This document shows positions 26,625-34,676 of a DNA stretch of 64,000 bases, piece after piece. The notes below the pieces were generated by a model. It had not been told where the DNA came from. It worked only from the letters and a program-made list of their open reading frames with translations, and ran no database searches. Position 1 is the stretch's first letter, and each line of letters opens with the position of its first letter. The DNA is from Blastococcus xanthinilyticus (GTDB taxonomy: Bacteria; Actinomycetota; Actinomycetes; Mycobacteriales; Geodermatophilaceae), in contig NZ_VNHW01000018.1 in the NCBI RefSeq assembly GCF_008124835.1, forward strand, positions 1 to 64,000, written 5' to 3'. Made by a program: the position numbers and the translations under genes.

Positions 26625-27610
26625 CGGGGGGCCTCCGAGGGGACGAGGTCGGCGGGGGCGACGAAGACGTCCTCGAGGTACCGGACGACGGCGAGCTCGG
26701 TGAACGGCACGTGCGACGGCAGCGGGCGGCCCAGCGCCAGGTCCAGCGCCAGCGACGGCATGTCGACCCCGGCCGCCACCGTCAGCGGCATGGCACCGGG
26801 GAAGCGCGGGTTCACCTCGAGCAGCGCGGGACGGCCGTCGGCGTCGCGGCGCAGCTGCACGTTGGCCACCCCGACCAGCCCGATCGCGGCGGCCACCCGG
26901 CGGGCGGTCTCCTCCAGCTCCGGGTCGGCCACGGTGGCCCCGGCGACCGAGACGCCGGAGTCGACCCGCAGCCGCGAGCGGGGAACGGCCGCGACCACGT
27001 GCCCGTCGGCGTCGGCCAGGGTGTCGACGGAGTACTCGTCCCCGGGCAGGTGCGCCTGGACCAGGATGTCCTCGTCGCGGCCGAGGGCGCGCAGCGCGGC
27101 GGCGTCCTCGACCAGGTGCACGCCCCGGGAGCCGGCGCCGCGCCGCGGCTTGACGATCACCGGGTAGTCCCAGCTGTCGGGGTCGGTGTCGCCGAGCAGC
27201 GCGGTGCGGGGGGTCGGCAGCACGTCGGCGCAGCGCCGGGCCAGCGCGTACTTGTCCAGGCAGACCTCGAGGGTCTCCAGGCTCGGCGCGGCCAGCGTGG
27301 TGCCGACGGCGTCCAGCCGCTTGCGCTCGGCGGCCAGCCGCGGCAGCTCGACGTCGACGGTGGAGAACAGCACGTCGACCCGCTCCCGCTCGCACAGGGC
27401 GACCAGGTCGTCGACGAAGTCCTCGGCGAGGCCGGGACGGACCAGGTGCCGGGCCGCTGCGCCGACGAGGTACAGACCGCTGGCGTAGCGGTCCATGTCG
27501 GCGGCGAGCAGCTCGACGTCGGGGCGCCGGGCCAGCGAGCGCAGCACGGCGATGCCGGCCGGGCCCCCGGCACCGGTCACGAGAACACGGGTGGGAGTGG
27601 GGTCAGACAC
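26621..27610 (-). CDS. ATP-grasp enzyme (carbamoyl-phosphate-synthase-like)
   Basis: The 329-residue protein begins with a pre-ATP-grasp Rossmann-like segment (VLVTGAGGPAGIAVLRSL) and has ATP-grasp motifs VIVKPRRGAGSRGV (about 150-163) and LLEVNPRFPG (about 265-274), where Glu and Asn bind Mg-ATP. Such stand-alone enzymes make amide or peptide bonds or carboxylate a substrate. Sitting between a deacetylase and a phosphoesterase/synthase, it could couple a carboxylate to a freed amine. That proposal is inference. Confidence 0.8.
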   Translation of the reverse strand: MSDPTPTRVLVTGAGGPAGIAVLRSLARRPDVELLAADMDRYASGLYLVGAAARHLVRPGLAEDFVDDLVALCERERVDVLFSTVDVELPRLAAERKRLDAVGTTLAAPSLETLEVCLDKYALARRCADVLPTPRTALLGDTDPDSWDYPVIVKPRRGAGSRGVHLVEDAAALRALGRDEDILVQAHLPGDEYSVDTLADADGHVVAAVPRSRLRVDSGVSVAGATVADPELEETARRVAAAIGLVGVANVQLRRDADGRPALLEVNPRFPGAMPLTVAAGVDMPSLALDLALGRPLPSHVPFTELAVVRYLEDVFVAPADLVPSEAPR

Positions 27611-28706
27611 CGAAGCGCTCCGGGGTGGTCGTAGGGGACGTCGAGGACGACGAGGAGGTGGTGGAGGGGGCGGCGAAGGCCGACCCGCTGGTGGCGCCGA
27701 CGACGCCGCCGGCGTCCCGGATCACCTCGAGCGGCTCGCAGTACTGGCCGCCGCTGCCGTAGCGGGACCAGTAGCGGGCCGTGGCGAGGACGAAGTCGTC
27801 CTGCAGGTAGGCGCGGATGCCGGCCTGCGAGCGGAAGCTCTTGAGCAGGTCGAGCTTGGTCGTGGTGAAGCCGTCGATGCTGACGAACCGGCTCGGCCGG
27901 AAGTCGATCGTGGCCGAGGGGCTCTGGAAGCAGGCGACGGTCGGCACGTTCCGCGTGGCCACGGTCGCCGCCTGGTGGACGGCGCGGTGGTCCTGGTGCC
28001 GGTCGTTGGCCGAGTGCGTGTAGACGATGCCGGGCGACACCTCGCGCACGACGCGCTCGATGATCGACATCGTCGGGTCCATCGGGCTGATGCGGGTGTC
28101 CTCGAGGTCCTCGAGGAAGAGCCGGGCGCCGATCAGCTCGGCGGCGGCCAGCGACTCGTTCTGCCGGTCCCCGGCCTCGCCGCCCCGGGCGCCGCGGCTC
28201 AGGGTGAGGATGACCACCGGGTCGCCGGCGGAGCGGTGCGCGGCGAGGGTCCCGCCGACGCCGATCTCCACGTCGTCGGGGTGGGCGCCGATGGCCAGCA
28301 CGGTCTGCCGCGGGGCGGTGGCGGCGCGCCTGGCCTGGGCGGTCTCGGCCAGCCGGCGGATCGTCGCGGCCAGGGTGTCCTTGGGCACGGGCTTGACGAG
28401 GAACTCGTCGGCGTTCCGGCGCAGCGCGTCCACGGCGTAGTCGACCGTCGCGTGCGCCGTCATCACCGTGACCGGCAGGTCCGGGCACACCTGGCGCAGC
28501 CGGTCGAGGAACTCCAGCCCGGTCATCCCCGGCATCTCGATGTCGGTGATCGCCGCGTCGAACTCCACGCGGGCGACCAGGGCCAGCGCCTCCATGGGGT
28601 CGGCGCACGTGGTCACGGTCATGCCGCCGCGCTGCAGCACCGTGCGCACGAAGAGTGCGGTGTCGGGATCGTCGTCGACGACCAGGACGTGCAGTGCACC
28701 GTCCAC
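27603..28706 (-). CDS. response-regulator receiver fused to PIG-L deacetylase
   Basis: Residues 5-122 form a CheY-like receiver (acidic D11-D12-D13, phospho-acceptor D55 in ITDIEMPG, K105 in LVKPVP). Residues about 134-345 form a PIG-L/LmbE zinc deacetylase, with H142-P-D-D145 and H237-Q-D-H240. All receiver and deacetylase catalytic residues appear intact, so the enzyme activity is probably gated by phosphorylation. PIG-L enzymes remove N-acetyl groups from amino-sugar conjugates. GTG 28706 has GAGGGAG nine bases upstream. The Ser/Thr-rich C-terminus is probably disordered. First gene of the operon; 8-base overlap with the ATP-grasp gene. Confidence 0.85.
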   Translation of the reverse strand: MDGALHVLVVDDDPDTALFVRTVLQRGGMTVTTCADPMEALALVARVEFDAAITDIEMPGMTGLEFLDRLRQVCPDLPVTVMTAHATVDYAVDALRRNADEFLVKPVPKDTLAATIRRLAETAQARRAATAPRQTVLAIGAHPDDVEIGVGGTLAAHRSAGDPVVILTLSRGARGGEAGDRQNESLAAAELIGARLFLEDLEDTRISPMDPTMSIIERVVREVSPGIVYTHSANDRHQDHRAVHQAATVATRNVPTVACFQSPSATIDFRPSRFVSIDGFTTTKLDLLKSFRSQAGIRAYLQDDFVLATARYWSRYGSGGQYCEPLEVIRDAGGVVGATSGSAFAAPSTTSSSSSTSPTTTPERFGV

Positions 28707-28948
28707 GGTTTCCGGCTCCCTCGGTCGGCTCCCCCGGCGACCGGGGTGGGGACGGGTGCCCCCGCGGAGGTTGACGGCCGGAATCCGGGCCGCCCTGAGC
28801 CGGGGCGGCGGCACCTCATCCCTTGGGGTGGGCCGACCCTCCCGGGCGGTCGTCCCGGTGCTCAAGCTGGTCGCCCCGGCTGCCGATCACCCGGTCAGGT
28901 GACGGGAGGACCGACCTCCGCACCGGTGATGCAGCAGAGGGGGACGTC

Positions 28949-29659
28949 GTGCCGGAGCAGTCCGTGCTCGTGGTGGAGGACACCCAGGAGATCCGCGAGC
29001 TCGTGACCACGGTGCTGGAGCGGGCCGGGTTCGCGGTGCGTGCCGTGGGCACCGGGGCGGCCGCGCTGGAAGAGGTGCGGCGGGACCCGCCGGACCTCAT
29101 CGTGCTCGACCTGGGGCTCCCGGACACCGACGGCACCGAGGTGTGCCGGCAGATCCGCGCCGAGACCCCCTGCTACGTCCTGATGCTCACCGCGCGGGCC
29201 GAGGAGGTCGACCTGCTCATCGGGCTGGCCGTCGGCGCCGACGGGTACATGGCCAAGCCGTTCTCGCCGCGCGAGCTCACCGCCCGCGTGCAGGCGATGC
29301 TGCGCTTCCCGCGGACCGCGCCGCTGCCCGCGGCCGACCCGGCCGCGACCGCCGAGTCGGTGCGCCGGCTCGCCGAGCTCGAGGTCGACGAGGACAGCCG
29401 CGAGGTGCGGGTCGACGGCGCCGTCGTGGACCTGACCCGCACCGAGTTCGACCTCCTGGCCGCCCTGGCGTCCCGGCCGGGCCGGGTGCTGCAGCGGGAG
29501 ACCCTGCTGCGCGAGGTCTGGCAGACCGACTGGGAGGGCAACCTGCGCCTGGTCGAGGCGCACATGTCCAACCTGCGCCGCAAGCTGGTCGCCGCCGGGC
29601 TGCACTCGCCCGAGATCAGGACGGTCCGCGGCGTGGGCTACCGCCTCGTCGCCGCCTGA
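28949..29659 (+). CDS. OmpR-family response regulator
   Basis: The 236-residue regulator has a receiver with phospho-acceptor D54 (IVLDLGLPD) and K103 (MAKPFSP), and a C-terminal winged helix (about 140-235, ending RTVRGVGYRLVAA) that binds DNA. The GTG at 28949 follows GAGGGGG by five bases. It is divergent from the receiver-PIG-L operon and convergent with the receiver-HPt gene, so it is a good candidate regulator of these surface genes. No kinase is directly adjacent. Confidence 0.88.
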   Translation: MPEQSVLVVEDTQEIRELVTTVLERAGFAVRAVGTGAAALEEVRRDPPDLIVLDLGLPDTDGTEVCRQIRAETPCYVLMLTARAEEVDLLIGLAVGADGYMAKPFSPRELTARVQAMLRFPRTAPLPAADPAATAESVRRLAELEVDEDSREVRVDGAVVDLTRTEFDLLAALASRPGRVLQRETLLREVWQTDWEGNLRLVEAHMSNLRRKLVAAGLHSPEIRTVRGVGYRLVAA

Positions 29660-29668
29660 CCTCCCGGG

Positions 29669-29728
29669 GGCATAGGAAGCTATCCACCCGTCTCGGGGGC
29701 TCGAACCGCAGGTAAAGCTTCCTATGCC
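29669..29728. repeat. 13-bp perfect inverted repeat with 34-base spacer
   Basis: GGCATAGGAAGCT (29669-29681) and AGCTTCCTATGCC (29716-29728) are exact reverse complements, separated by 34 bases. The arms are much more AT-rich than the surroundings. It lies between convergent genes (response regulator and receiver-HPt), so it may be a bidirectional terminator; the composition and spacing would also fit a dispersed palindromic element. Confidence 0.8.
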
Positions 29729-29746: not shown

Positions 29747-30415
29747 TCAGGCGCCGGCGAGCTCGTGCAGCTGGACCACGCGGGAGTGCGCCAGCACCCC
29801 GCGGCGCGCGTCGGCGGCGATCTCGCGGCAGATCGAGGCCACCTCGGGGTGCCCGAGCTGACCGCTCGTGCCGGCCAGCGTGTGCGCGGCGAAGGCGACC
29901 GCGGTGGCGTCGCCGGTGCGGGTGTGCCGGTCGATCGCCGAGAGGCGGGCGGGCAGCGCGTCGGCGTAGATGCCGCGGAGCCGGGTCATCAGCTCGGCGT
30001 CCACCAGGTCGGCGTCGTCGGGCACGTCCGTGTCGTCGGACCGCGCCTGCTCGGCCGGCCCCGTGGTCCGGCGGCGCAGGAAGTCCAGCAGCGCCCGTGC
30101 GGTGACGGGCTTGGCGAGCGTGGTGAGCGCGCCCGCGGCGGCGGCCTCGGCCCGGACCTCGTCGGTCGGGTCGGCGGTGACGACGACGAACCGGGCGGAC
30201 GAGCCGTTGCGACGGATGCGGCGGAGCATCCCGGTCCCGGAACCCCCGGGCAGCTCGGCGTCGGTGACGACCAGGTCCACGTCGGTGACCAGTGCGTGCC
30301 GGACGGCGTCCTCCGGGCCGGCGGCCTGCTGCACGTCCCAGCCGCCGAGGCACAGGAGGTCGGCGACCTCGTCCCGGGCGGTGGCGTCGGCGTCGACGAC
30401 GAGGGCGGTCAGCAC
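29747..30415 (-). CDS. receiver-HPt phosphotransfer protein
   Basis: The 222-residue protein pairs a receiver domain (acidic pocket near residue 8-10, D52 in VTDAELPG, K102 in LAKPV) with a C-terminal HPt domain where H178 lies in AAHTLAGTSGQLG. Most HPt domains have Lys in HxLKG; here it is Ala. It has no DNA-binding domain, so it is a relay component. It is the last gene of the tasA/sipW-like operon (7-base overlap), tying a phosphorelay to export of matrix proteins. Confidence 0.8.
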   Translation of the reverse strand: MLTALVVDADATARDEVADLLCLGGWDVQQAAGPEDAVRHALVTDVDLVVTDAELPGGSGTGMLRRIRRNGSSARFVVVTADPTDEVRAEAAAAGALTTLAKPVTARALLDFLRRRTTGPAEQARSDDTDVPDDADLVDAELMTRLRGIYADALPARLSAIDRHTRTGDATAVAFAAHTLAGTSGQLGHPEVASICREIAADARRGVLAHSRVVQLHELAGA

Positions 30416-31005
30416 GTCAGCGCCGTCGTCCGCGCGGAGTCCGCGGTCCAGCCGTAACGGGTTTCGGTGGTGACCAGCAGGCTGGGCCGGTAGTACAGCG
30501 CGTCGGCATCTTGCACAGCACTGACCTGGGTCCCCGTGGTCCGGAGCATCGGGGCGACGCTGCCGTCGATCCCCAGATGTGCCGAGACCAGGTAGCCGGT
30601 CACTTCCCGGGTGGGGCTGCCGGTCCAGCGCAGCGTGACGTGCAGGTCGGTGTTCTTGTCGACGGTGGTGGTCGTCGTCTCGTCGGTGCCCGGGCCGGCG
30701 GTCGAGCTCTGCGTGGTGCTGTCGACGTTCGTGCTGCTGTCCGCGTACGTGATCGTCCGGCTCCAGGCGGTCTGGGTCTGCACCCTCGTGACGGGGTCGG
30801 TCCGGACCGTCCGCTTCGTGGTGGTCGTCGTCGTGACGCAGTGATCCTCGACGGTCAACCCGGTGGGGGCCTGGACGGTGACCGTCGGGATCTTGGTGCT
30901 GACCACGGCGGTGTCGTTGAAGGCGGCCCACGCGGGGAGGGCAGCGCCGAGCGCGACGGCGACGGCGAGCCCGGCCACCACCAGGACGCGGCGGATGCGG
31001 CTCAT
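30409..31005 (-). CDS. exported Thr-rich protein of the SipW/TasA cluster
   Basis: The 198-residue protein has a basic start and hydrophobic helix (7-27) ending in PAWAAFNDTA, similar to the export signals of SipW-dependent proteins, then a Thr-rich beta-type extracellular domain. It contains two cysteines (HC near 56 and the final residue). It overlaps the signal peptidase gene by 4 bases and probably is processed by it. I infer a minor matrix or anchoring component; no named family is certain. Confidence 0.62.
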   Translation of the reverse strand: MSRIRRVLVVAGLAVAVALGAALPAWAAFNDTAVVSTKIPTVTVQAPTGLTVEDHCVTTTTTTKRTVRTDPVTRVQTQTAWSRTITYADSSTNVDSTTQSSTAGPGTDETTTTTVDKNTDLHVTLRWTGSPTREVTGYLVSAHLGIDGSVAPMLRTTGTQVSAVQDADALYYRPSLLVTTETRYGWTADSARTTALTC

Positions 31006-31631
31006 GCTCGCTCCTCGGTCTCGTTCCGGGTGGGGCGCCAGATGGCCAGCAGCACCCAGGCGGCGAGCAGCGCGGGGGCGCCGTAGAGCAGCGCCTGGCT
31101 GATCACCGGGGTGCGCAGCAGCTGGATGAGGTGGCCGATCTCGGGGACCACGGCCCGGACCTGGTAGACGGTGTCGCCCTCCAGGCCGGCGGTCCACGGG
31201 TCGATGGCCTCGTTCGCGTCGCCCTTGGTCTGCACGGCGACGGTGCCGTCGGCGGCGGTCTCGACGGAGACCACGCGGTGGGTCACGAGGCTGTGGTCGC
31301 CCACCGGCATGTGGTAGGTGATCACCATGCCCTCGGTCACCTCGGAGACGCTGACCGGGGTGGCGATCGTGACGTCACCCGGCTCGATCTCGGGCGCCAT
31401 GCTCGCGGTCAGCATGGTCATGGTGCGGTAGTCCAGGACGTGCGGTCCGACGGCCAGGACGGCGAACGCCAGGACGGCGACCCCCATGGCTCCGCGGACC
31501 AGCCACGGGACCGTGCGGCCCAGGATCTGGCGGGCCCGGCCGGCCGGCGTGCCGGCCGTGGAGCGCTCGTCCTCGGCCGGGGGCAGCTGCACGGCTGCCC
31601 CCGGGGCCGGGACGGGGAGGACGGTGGTCAT
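31002..31631 (-). CDS. SipW-type signal peptidase I (ER-type)
   Basis: The 209-residue protein has an N-terminal helix (about 43-65), the signal peptidase nucleophile S77 (TASMAPEIEPGD), and H118 in SLVTHRVV where bacterial SPases have Lys. Together with KGDAN (136-140) this defines the archaeal/ER-like SipW subclass. A C-terminal helix follows. In Bacillus, SipW cleaves TasA and TapA. Its genes here are flanked by a TasA-like protein upstream and another exported protein downstream, so the same role is likely. Confidence 0.87.
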   Translation of the reverse strand: MTTVLPVPAPGAAVQLPPAEDERSTAGTPAGRARQILGRTVPWLVRGAMGVAVLAFAVLAVGPHVLDYRTMTMLTASMAPEIEPGDVTIATPVSVSEVTEGMVITYHMPVGDHSLVTHRVVSVETAADGTVAVQTKGDANEAIDPWTAGLEGDTVYQVRAVVPEIGHLIQLLRTPVISQALLYGAPALLAAWVLLAIWRPTRNETEERA

Positions 31632-31663
31632 GGCGGGTTCTCCGAGTGGTCGTCGGGATGCGA

Positions 31664-32278
31664 TCAGCGGGCGGTGCCGGTGGCCTGCGTGCCGGTGAAG
31701 GTCAGGCGCAGCGTGGCGGTCTTGCCCTGGAAGGCGTTGTCGGCCGCGGTGGGCAGCGAGATCGAGAAGACGAGGTTGTCCGAGCCGCCGGCGGAGAGCG
31801 ACTTGAGCGCGCCCAGGTTGGCGGCCGCGAGGACCGGCCCGGTCGAGAGCTGCTTCTCGCCGCTGGCGCAGGTGTAGGTGCGCGCCGCGTCGGTGCCGCC
31901 CTGGACCCAGGCGACGTCGCAGGACTTCACGGTCAGCTGGAGGCCGTTGGCCGTGCCGTTGGTGAGGACGCTCGACGTCGTGTTCGTGGCGGACAGGCCG
32001 ACCGAGGCCAGGCCGGTGTTGCCGTCGTTCTTGAGGGTCACCGCGCGGGTCAGGCTGTCACCGGGCACGAAGCCGGCCGTGGTCACCGGGATGGCCGCCG
32101 CGGGCTGGGTCAGGTCGATCGAGACGGTGCCGGAGGTGATCGTGGTGTCGACCGAGGTGCTGTCGGTGAAGCTGCCGAAGGTGCCCATGCCGGCGACGGC
32201 GGCAGCGGCGCCGAGCACGCCGAGCGAGCCGACGACCTTGCGGGCGGTGGAGCTGGTGGTGGTGGTCTTGGTGCTCAT
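31664..32278 (-). CDS. TasA/camelysin-like secreted matrix protein
   Basis: The 204-residue protein has a Thr/Ser-rich start, a hydrophobic helix (about 15-35) and the sequence GTFGSFTDST directly after it, matching the A-x-F-T-D pattern at the mature N-terminus of TasA/CalY proteins. The rest is an Ala/Thr/Gly-rich beta-sandwich. TasA proteins form amyloid-like fibres in biofilm matrix. It is the first gene of the sipW operon; a 32-base gap separates the two. A pair of cysteines (about 120 and 137) may form a disulfide. Confidence 0.8.
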   Translation of the reverse strand: MSTKTTTTSSTARKVVGSLGVLGAAAAVAGMGTFGSFTDSTSVDTTITSGTVSIDLTQPAAAIPVTTAGFVPGDSLTRAVTLKNDGNTGLASVGLSATNTTSSVLTNGTANGLQLTVKSCDVAWVQGGTDAARTYTCASGEKQLSTGPVLAAANLGALKSLSAGGSDNLVFSISLPTAADNAFQGKTATLRLTFTGTQATGTAR

Positions 32279-32410
32279 GTCCTGCGTCTCCTGTGTCCGT
32301 GGGGCCACCGGGTTTCCGGCGACACCGAGGACTCTGGCGGCCCAACCGCAGGCCACCCGCCAGCGATCCGCAAGGAATCCGCAAGAAGACGGAGCGCGCC
32401 GGAACGCGCC

Positions 32411-32442
32411 GCGCCCCCCGTCCCCGAGGGGGCGGAGGGCGC
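32411..32442 (-). terminator. hairpin downstream of the histidine kinase
   Basis: GCGCCCCCCGTCCCC pairs with GGGGGCGGAGGGCGC across a short GA-rich loop, with one mismatch and one G-T pair. It lies 16 bases beyond the kinase stop and before the tasA-like promoter region, so it probably separates the two operons. Confidence 0.6.
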
Positions 32443-32457
32443 GGGCACGGGTGTCGG

Positions 32458-34242
32458 TCACGCGGGAACGGGCAGGGTCATCGTGAAGGTGGTGCCCACG
32501 CCCTCGGTGCTCACCAGGTCCAGCGTCCCGCCATGGGCGGTGGTGATCGCCTTGGTGATCGTGAGCCCGAGCCCCACACCGGGGACGGCGTTGCGCTGGG
32601 CGTTCGACGTCCGGAAGAACCGGGTGAACATCTGCCCCTGCTCGCCGGCCGGGATGCCCATCCCGGTGTCGGCGACCGACAGGAGCGCCACCGGCGCCGC
32701 GTCCGGGGCCGGGGAGCCGGTGACCTCGCCGTCGGGCGTCCGCCACGCCGGGCGCAGGACCAGCTCGACCCGCCCCCCGGCCGGCGTGAACTTGACCGCG
32801 TTGGAGACCAGGTTGTCGCAGGCCTGACCCAGCCGGACGGCGTCGCCGTCGACCACCAGACCGTCGTCGGGGACGTCGACGACGAGCTGCACGCCCGCGG
32901 CCGCGGCGGCGACGCGTGCGGTCTCCTCGGCGGCCCGCACCACCCCGGCCAGGTCGACCGCGGCCGGCTGGAGGGTGAACCGGCCGCTCTCCACCTGGGC
33001 GGTGAAGAGCAGGTCGCCGACCAGGCGGAGCAGACGCTGGGCGTTGCGCTCGACGGTGGACAGGTACTGCCGCTGCTCGTCGGTGAGCGGTGCGTCCTCG
33101 TCGTCCATGACGAGCTCGAGGTAGCCGAGGATCGAGCTCAGCGGGGTGCGCAGCTCGTGGCTGATGAGGCTCACGAACTGGTCCTTCATGCGCTCGGTGG
33201 CCCGGACCTCGGTCATGTCGGTGCCGACGAAGTTCCAGCCGGCGTGCGTGCCCCGGTCGTCCGACCGCGGGGTGATGGCGACCGACACCGTGCGGTGCCG
33301 GCCGTCCGCCGCGACGTAGGTCCAGTCGCGGACGTCGCTGCCCCGTTCGCGCGCGGCGTGCACCAGGGCGTCCAGGCCGGACGCCGACCCGTTGGCCTCG
33401 GCGGCGGAAGCGAGCTCCTCGGGGACGTGGAAGTCGAGGATGGACCGGGTGCGCACGACCTCCGGTCGCGGCACCCCCAGCATCTTCTCCGCGCCGGGGT
33501 TCCAGACCCGGATGGTGCCGTCGCGGTCGGTGCCGATGATCGACTGCTCCGTCACGGCGTCGATGACGCTGGTCATGGTCTGGGCGCGGGCGGCCAGGAT
33601 CCGCGAGGCGGTGTCCAGCTCGTCGGCGCGGCTCCGGACCTGGGCCAGCAGGGCGGCCTGCTCGCGCTGCAGCCGCGCGATGTCCCGGGCCTGGTCGGCG
33701 TTGCGGCGGGTGCCCACGTTGATCGCGGCGCCCCCGACGGCGACGACCAGCGGGCCCAGCAGGAGGGCGCCGGGCATGGTCGCGGTACCGGGCAGGTGCG
33801 CGCCGATCAGCTGGGGAAGGGCGAGGACCACCGCCGTCCCGGCCACCGCGACCGGGACGCCGCGGCGGCCCGCGTGGGTGGAGAGCGTCCACAGCGGGCT
33901 GACGAGCAGGAAGAGGATCGTCGGCGCGGCGCTGCCGGCGTAGAGCAGGGCGATGGCGGCCAGGTGGGCGACCGGCACGGCGAGGGCACCGGCGCCGGCG
34001 AGCGGCCGGCGCAGGGACCAGGCTCCCGCGATGGCGGCGAACGCGATCGCCAGCCCGGTGTGGACCAGGGCCGGCCGGACGACGGGCAGCGCACCGACCA
34101 GGAGCAGCAGGGAGGCCGCCGCGAACATGACGGTGCCCGGCAGGAGGTTCCCGGCGGCGGTCTGCCAGCCGGTCGGGTCGAGCAGCCGGTGCCGCCGGCG
34201 GGCAGCGGCCGGGGCGGGCGGGTCGAGGACGGCGATGGTCAT
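32458..34242 (-). CDS. membrane-bound PAS-domain hybrid-type sensor histidine kinase
   Basis: The 594-residue kinase has about six N-terminal transmembrane helices (35-175), a coiled linker, a PAS domain (about 222-345, with GWNFVGTDMTE typical of PAC), a HisKA domain with the phospho-acceptor H362 (SHELRTPL) and a HATPase domain with N box DNLVSNAVKFTP, DTGMGIP and GVGLGLTI. It has no receiver of its own. ATG 34242 overlaps the stop of the preceding response regulator by 4 bases, so they are a two-component pair. It lies upstream of the tasA-like operon and may feed its relay. Confidence 0.9.
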   Translation of the reverse strand: MTIAVLDPPAPAAARRRHRLLDPTGWQTAAGNLLPGTVMFAAASLLLLVGALPVVRPALVHTGLAIAFAAIAGAWSLRRPLAGAGALAVPVAHLAAIALLYAGSAAPTILFLLVSPLWTLSTHAGRRGVPVAVAGTAVVLALPQLIGAHLPGTATMPGALLLGPLVVAVGGAAINVGTRRNADQARDIARLQREQAALLAQVRSRADELDTASRILAARAQTMTSVIDAVTEQSIIGTDRDGTIRVWNPGAEKMLGVPRPEVVRTRSILDFHVPEELASAAEANGSASGLDALVHAARERGSDVRDWTYVAADGRHRTVSVAITPRSDDRGTHAGWNFVGTDMTEVRATERMKDQFVSLISHELRTPLSSILGYLELVMDDEDAPLTDEQRQYLSTVERNAQRLLRLVGDLLFTAQVESGRFTLQPAAVDLAGVVRAAEETARVAAAAAGVQLVVDVPDDGLVVDGDAVRLGQACDNLVSNAVKFTPAGGRVELVLRPAWRTPDGEVTGSPAPDAAPVALLSVADTGMGIPAGEQGQMFTRFFRTSNAQRNAVPGVGLGLTITKAITTAHGGTLDLVSTEGVGTTFTMTLPVPA

Positions 34243-34676
34243 GCCACGGCCTCCCGGGAGGCGAGCGCGCGCACCTGCTCGACCAGGCCGACGACGGTGA
34301 AGGGCTTGGCCAGGTAGGCGTCAGCGCCGGCGGAGAGGCCGCGGGCCACCTCGTCGGGGGAGGCCCCGGCGGAGAGCAGCAGGATCCGGATGCCCGCGGT
34401 CGCGGGGTCCTCCCGGAGGGCGGCGCAGATCTCCAGCCCGGTGGCGCCGGGCATCGAGACGTCGAGCACCGCGAGGTCGGGCAGCTCCGCCCGGGCGGCC
34501 GTCAGCGCCGCGGTGCCGTCGGGTGCGGAGGCGATGACCTGGCACCCGGCCTTGCGGACGGCGAGGGACACCAGCTGGCGGATGTCGTCCTCGTCGTCGG
34601 CCACGAGCACGCGGGTCGGGCCGGCGGGATCGGCCCCGGCGGGGCGGTCGCCGGGGGAGGGCGGGGCCGAGTGCAC
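34239..34676 (-). CDS. single-domain (CheY-like) response regulator
   Basis: The 145-residue protein consists of an N-terminal Pro-rich tail and one receiver with acidic D28-D29, phospho-acceptor D72 (LDVSMPG) and K124 (LAKPF). Without an output domain it should act as a phosphate relay or by protein contact. It is co-translated with the PAS kinase (ATGA overlap), its likely donor. The receiver-HPt and receiver-PIG-L proteins nearby are plausible relay partners. Confidence 0.88.
   Translation of the reverse strand: MHSAPPSPGDRPAGADPAGPTRVLVADDEDDIRQLVSLAVRKAGCQVIASAPDGTAALTAARAELPDLAVLDVSMPGATGLEICAALREDPATAGIRILLLSAGASPDEVARGLSAGADAYLAKPFTVVGLVEQVRALASREAVA

Follow-up and report, generated by a model that had tools for sequence, protein, structure and literature searches.

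In Bacillus subtilis, the tapA-sipW-tasA operon provides TasA, whose N-terminal strand, once freed, inserts into the following subunit of the fibre (PMC10151520, PMC9674648), and TapA, which is described as carrying a donor-strand-like N-terminus ahead of a finished Ig-like domain (PMC10151520). Between protomers, TasA residues F29, P62, Q232 and F200 make up a 'proline box', the region described as best conserved across the family (PMC10151520, PMC9674648). Comparable systems are described for B. cereus, i.e. sipW-tasA, CalY and CapP, in which SipW processes TasA/CalY subunits while polymerisation is controlled by a third protein (PMC13082335), for Clostridium perfringens, whose sipW-bsaABCRSD locus includes a two-component pair needed for expression of the operon (PMC7395162), and for archaeal bundling pili, which are TasA-related donor-strand fibres (PMC9674648, PMC10903470). 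Here we describe three genes of Blastococcus xanthinilyticus on contig NZ_VNHW01000018.1 (positions 1-64,000, hereafter the window, i.e. the whole 64,000-nucleotide stretch analysed). We consider it likely that this operon exports and assembles a TasA-family filament by donor-strand exchange, using its own SipW-type peptidase and an FN3 protein, P3, as starter or cap.

The initial annotation had grouped a TasA/camelysin-like protein, a SipW-type Ser/His peptidase and a second exported protein at 30409-32278, and these coordinates proved exact, being bounded on the minus strand by the stop codon of the last gene and the initial ATG of the first one:

31664..32278, minus strand: TasA/camelysin-family subunit P0001, 204 amino acids (PF12389, TIGR04088, TasA-like model)
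31002..31631, minus strand: SipW-type signal peptidase P0002 of the endoplasmic reticulum (ER)/archaeal type, 209 amino acids (TIGR02228; S77, H118, D138)
30409..31005, minus strand: second exported protein P0003, here called P3, 198 amino acids (AxA/AFND signal, the slash marking the cut; one FN3 domain by model)

The start of the P3 gene overlaps the stop of the SipW gene. With the B. subtilis operon and the TasA fibre (8aur, 5of1/5of2) the locus shares the subunit fold, the SipW-type signal, interface residues and the dedicated peptidase, as well as a further exported protein in which a donor-strand-like N-terminus accompanies a complete Ig-like fold, the latter by model in P3. The gene order differs, being tasA-sipW-P3 here and tapA-sipW-tasA in B. 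subtilis, and P3 is modelled as an FN3 domain, whereas TapA is a V-set Ig. With the C. perfringens locus (PMC7395162) it has in common SipW, an exported subunit for which we infer the polymerisation described there, extra exported proteins and two-component genes; the C. perfringens subunit, however, belongs to the BsaA family and the two-component system there lies in the operon, whereas Blastococcus has a REC-HPt gene in the operon and a kinase upstream. B. cereus CapP has a DUF4047 motif (PMC13082335) where P3 has an FN3 domain.

The assignment of P0001 to the TasA/camelysin family was borne out by matches above the cut-offs to both PF12389 (camelysin, M73; 3.3e-12, 47.1 bits, cut-off 22.5) and TIGR04088 (SipW-dependent signal; 24.6 bits, cut-off 19) and by the TasA jelly-roll fold of its model. 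Profile A1 comprised 35 actinobacterial sequences, i.e. the window protein, 22 of the 27 TasA open reading frames (ORFs) of related loci and 12 others; the TasA sequences of loci L013 and L023 and the second TasA copies of L014, L026 and L031 were omitted, as were the TasA of L073 and second copies among the wider actinobacterial loci. The profile finds TasA both as the fibre structure (8aur, 4.6e-14) and as the monomer (5of1, 1.4e-13), and 30 of its 35 members match the TasA model at 0.01. The pilin AbpX (9sj2), which we take to be archaeal, is matched weakly (0.0078), no single stretch passing alone. In the alignment of the profile to TasA, residues F29, P62 and Q232 correspond to F37, P72 and Q198 of P0001, which are conserved in 34/35, 35/35 and 33/35 sequences, respectively, i.e. 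three of the four proline-box contacts are aligned and conserved.

The AlphaFold2 model of P0001 (mean predicted local distance difference test score, pLDDT, 74.6) superimposes on TasA 5of2 with a Z-score of 10.6 at 2.4 Å over 125 residues, the best non-TasA match reaching Z 7.6; of the 50 matches shown by each fold search those cited here were used, the others being mainly common beta-sandwiches. The donor strand is predicted to span approximately residues 36-54. Judged by its sequence, P0001 is a relative of TasA and not TasA in the narrow sense, and it differs from B. subtilis TasA in its score far below the TasA equivalog cut-off and in a cysteine pair, C120/C137, found in 26 of the 35 aligned members (the second cysteine being tolerated within three columns). 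This pair, possibly a disulfide, is to our knowledge absent from B. subtilis TasA.

The SipW-type Ser/His peptidase is equally well founded, since P0002 exceeds the cut-off of TIGR02228, the archaeal-type signal peptidase I model (61.8 bits, cut-off 51.85), and its best sequence matches in the PDB are SEC11C and SEC11A, i.e. ER catalytic subunits. With positions aligned to SEC11C, the ER-type Ser/His/Asp, instead of Ser/Lys, is present in all 25 related loci. Against the Bacillus SipW equivalog NF046067 the protein remained below the cut-off (50.6 bits versus 190). The same genome has a second SipW-type gene (L001 1459-3156; G000 C9 near 219619), whose 565-amino-acid product includes a fused DUF5305-like C-terminal region (26.4 bits, slightly below the cut-off of 29). 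Located 5' of it, at L001 1008-1394, is a gene for an exported-looking protein of 128 amino acids with AFTSNN after the signal, and the two may form a separate export pair. A third place with a SipW-type signal (L006, 14 bits) was inspected as ORFs and dropped.

The newest element of the locus is the second exported protein, an FN3-type protein with a donor-strand-like N-terminus. By itself, P3 has no family over the cut-off in Pfam or NCBIfam, it not being established whether either holds a TapA model. In alignment A2, made up of the window P3 and the P3 of 24 relatives (L016, L023 and L031 omitted), Pfam fn3 is matched by four of the 25 members, with 1.4e-8 as the best value, and the window's own P3 is not among them. 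Its model, however, has a mean pLDDT of 90.6 and matches FN3 domains with Z-scores of up to 13.3 over 90 residues; most of the 50 matches listed are FN3 domains (Z 11-13.3), and the V-set Ig of TapA may lie beyond the matches listed. P3 is modelled as one complete FN3 domain with a long hairpin insert, and the candidate idea of a TasA paralogue was rejected because the model matches FN3 domains. Two P3 genes each are found in L012 and L013.

The mature N-terminus of P3, AFNDTAVVSTKIPTVTV, aligns without gaps with the TasA strand of its own operon, SFTDSTSVDTTITSGTV. For 23 pairs of P3 and own-locus TasA N-termini (23 of the 25 A2 members, the TasA of L013 being absent from A1), the mean BLOSUM62 score in this register was 11.0 over residues 3-20, versus a mean of -1.57 (sd 3.2) in the shuffle control, in which 1 of 2000 was as high. 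Other registers reached at most 4.7, and without the x-D positions the score was 7.57 versus -0.31 when shuffled, with 5 of 2000 as high. P3 would appear to take the place that TapA, the initiator, has in Bacillus, as an unrelated protein following the same logic with a different fold.

These results fit the following scheme. P0001 and P3 would leave the cell via Sec, both with signal peptides that have an aromatic residue at P2'. The SipW-type peptidase of the operon would remove the signal of P0001 at the least and thereby release N-terminal strands beginning S/A-F, and the freed strand of one subunit would complete the incomplete beta-sandwich of the next to give a non-covalent fibre, like that of B. 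subtilis TasA. P3, with its complete fold, would offer only its donor-strand-like N-terminus and would thus start or cap the fibre, like TapA in B. subtilis.

An alternative is that P3 is no initiator but a wall-associated anchor or tip adhesin, contacting partners or surfaces through its variable FN3 hairpin insert. This is possible, and it would agree with the insert length, which differs among orthologues, and with the mean identity of best segments, by which P3 is the least conserved operon product (42.8 % in 21 loci, compared with 61.3 % for TasA in 24, 71.2 % for SipW in 25 and 63.1 % for REC-HPt in 25). However, a mere anchor would not need a mature N-terminus that holds the TasA donor-strand register, and inspection of the P3 sequence by eye found neither a C-terminal hydrophobic segment nor an LPxTG-like motif, so that we consider this role less likely than that of a starter or cap.

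Strong SipW orthologues (E <=3.3e-56) occur in 68 of 112 Geodermatophilaceae genomes, and 84 of 112 have a match at 1e-5. In 24 of 25 related loci TasA and SipW are neighbours, a pairing beyond chance which supports the grouping of the genes; the exception, L027, begins at SipW at a contig end. At 1e-5, tblastn detected P3 in 20 of the 25 loci, and P3-like ORFs with the same terminal motif are also present in L017, L022, L023 and L026; none was found in L027. Second TasA copies, identical or nearly so, are present in L014, L026 and L031, and L026 also has a second SipW. In a sample of Actinomycetota, PF12389 was matched at 0.001 in 50 of 396 genomes, 47 of them over the cut-off, and of the 20 actinobacterial TasA loci read, 16 have an adjoining SipW-type gene (those without are L068, L071, L079 and L082). 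TasA-like systems are described as phylogenetically widespread beyond Bacillus (PMC10903470, PMC10151520). Among the open-access papers listed we found neither a Geodermatophilaceae TasA/SipW system nor an experimentally studied actinobacterial TasA, which is weak evidence of absence; in PMC9810758, on an actinobacterium, the sole match to 'tasa' is an author name.

The initial annotation had also tied the operon to signalling genes, and the following features surround it:

29747..30415, minus strand: REC-HPt protein (PF00072 and PF01627; GTG start chosen by us)
32279..32457, minus strand: intergenic region 5' of tasA, 179 bases, putative promoter site read from the sequence
32458..34242, minus strand: PAS histidine kinase, upstream neighbour (PF00512, PF02518, PAS)
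34239..34676, minus strand: single-domain response regulator (PF00072), overlapping the kinase start
28949..29659, plus strand: OmpR-type response regulator, convergent to the operon (PF00072 and PF00486; start codon chosen by us)
29669..29728, no strand: long hairpin between the convergent genes, with 13-nucleotide perfect arms, a copy of a dispersed palindrome

The GTG start that we chose for REC-HPt falls within the P3 stop, and because of this overlap the gene is probably on the operon transcript, for which the 179-base intergenic region is the likeliest promoter site. REC-HPt is the only one of the signalling genes that overlaps the operon. In L011, L012, L013, L016, L018 and L024, the REC-HPt gene is followed by a paralogue of it, 42-50 % identical to the REC-HPt protein of the window.

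A stronger form of this tie would be control of the operon by a full phosphorelay of histidine kinase, single REC, REC-HPt and OmpR-type regulator. Such a layout is comparable to the Spo0A phosphorelay of Bacillus. All four protein types occur together here, the REC-HPt gene overlaps the P3 stop, and across the 25 named loci the kinase is present in 24, the convergent OmpR-type regulator (mean identity 88.7 %) in 24 and both SipW and REC-HPt in 25, all losses being those of L027. The kinase histidine is kept in 24/24 kinases found, and the window's own REC-HPt protein has both the HPt histidine and the REC aspartate. Among the relatives, however, the HPt histidine is present in 12/25 and missing in 13/25, the REC aspartate of the same protein is present in 18 of the 22 aligned, both counts holding when hits are restricted to one site per locus, and the single-domain REC, with its own motif in 18/25 loci, is not beside the kinase in six; a conserved relay is therefore not supported and was rejected as a general statement. 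Likewise, three unrelated upstream genes, one matching DUF3618, one Holin-X and one lacking any good Pfam match, are in place in 24/25 loci like the kinase; synteny thus extends over the entire block, so that kinase adjacency is unspecific, says little about regulation and was discarded as proof of it. As a raw count, 8 of 20 other actinobacterial TasA loci have two-component genes nearby. We therefore regard a full relay as rather improbable. The tie to signalling is real as gene order, with REC-HPt overlapping the operon, and weaker as function, control by the adjacent two-component genes being something they may or may not exert; nor is such a tie new, a sipW operon with a two-component pair being known (PMC7395162).

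As to cleavage, the initial annotation had expected the P0001 cut before FTDST. The site lies close by, but the register with TasA, whose F29 stands at P2', predicts a cut between G35 and S36, one residue earlier. This site has G at -1, F34 at P2 and F37 at P2'. It is quite unlikely that the ordinary signal peptidase I does the cutting and that the SipW-type enzyme has another role. In its favour, a canonical signal peptidase I is encoded elsewhere in the genome (128.7 bits), and this enzyme could cut P3, since a strict AxA precedes the cut in 25 of 25 P3 sequences; B. subtilis SipW is, moreover, described as also influencing matrix gene expression (PMC13082335). The P0001 site, however, combines G at -1 with aromatic residues in both P2 and P2', a pattern described as hindering LepB: Escherichia coli LepB is described as cleaving aromatic-P2' sites poorly, and modelling faults the P2 tryptophan of TasA (PMC10269814). 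Furthermore, the catalytic residues of the SipW-type enzyme are kept in 25/25 loci. We therefore retain the operon's own peptidase as the probable processing enzyme for at least P0001.

A reading of P0001 as a monomeric surface protein or as a peptidase of the camelysin type, and not as a fibre subunit, might be implied by the Pfam name of PF12389 (camelysin metallo-endopeptidase) but is similarly improbable; the peptidase was discarded since P0001 lacks histidine altogether and its conserved residues are those of the TasA protomer interface.

Several points nevertheless weigh against a donor-strand fibre started or capped by P3. P0001 resembles B. subtilis TasA only distantly, scoring 29.5 bits with the TasA equivalog NF046066 (cut-off 450), TIGR04088 is matched by only 17 of the 35 A1 members at 0.01, and F200, the fourth proline-box residue, lies outside the alignment. 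In the P0001 model, residues 8-49, including most of the donor strand, have a pLDDT <50, which would be expected for a free donor strand and equally for a poor alignment. Foldseek gives this model a template-modelling (TM) score of approximately 0.48 to the TasA monomer and ranks the fibre subunit 8aur eighth (TM 0.35-0.40). P3 does look exported, as had been proposed, although its SipW-type signal is below the cut-off (13.3 bits against 19 for TIGR04088), and the AxA conserved throughout its orthologues belongs with these points; the likeness of the P3 and TasA N-termini may in part come from shared recognition by the peptidase or from a general beta-strand pattern. REC-HPt precedes P3 in L026, L028, L030 and L031. 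Among the open-access papers listed, we found none with data on fibres, biofilms or cleavage in this family. Finally, Blastococcus is described as a genus with a tendency to form aggregates, and its genomes carry tad pilus genes (PMC9686282), so that a tad pilus is another possible cause of aggregation.

Elsewhere in the window, the hairpin at 29669-29728 belongs to a dispersed palindrome of 55-56 bases, CATAGGAAGCT...AGCTTCCTATG; its inner part is variable in sequence and for the most part palindromic as well. There are 11 copies in this genome and up to 23 in one relative (0 with a reversed-pattern control), and it is present in 8 of 40 genomes searched; the eight, among them this genome, belong to a single genus. 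The palindrome may act as a terminator or represent a family of repeated extragenic palindromes. An Rfam scan of the window gave nothing above gathering scores. The gene at 27603-28865 joins a response-regulator domain to a PIG-L (GlcNAc de-N-acetylase) domain, and its neighbourhood includes an ATP-grasp gene and one for a family 2 glycosyltransferase.

Taken together, the proposal of a distinct matrix system tied to signalling stands in its core, i.e. a strongly supported TasA/SipW export module, for which a role in the matrix would be conceivable; its distinctness is only partly supported, as the family is already described as widespread (PMC10903470, PMC10151520). It is tempting to speculate, with somewhat less than even confidence, that Geodermatophilaceae build TasA-type donor-strand fibres which are started or capped by an FN3 protein, as an evolutionarily independent replacement of TapA, that its fast-changing hairpin provides a strain-specific cap or tip, and that the REC-HPt-like protein of the same transcript is often without phosphorylation sites. 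If true, the matrix-fibre mechanism of Bacillus would extend to an actinobacterial genus, and the initiator role of TapA would be filled there by an unrelated protein, with a TasA-like donor strand placed before a complete Ig-like domain.

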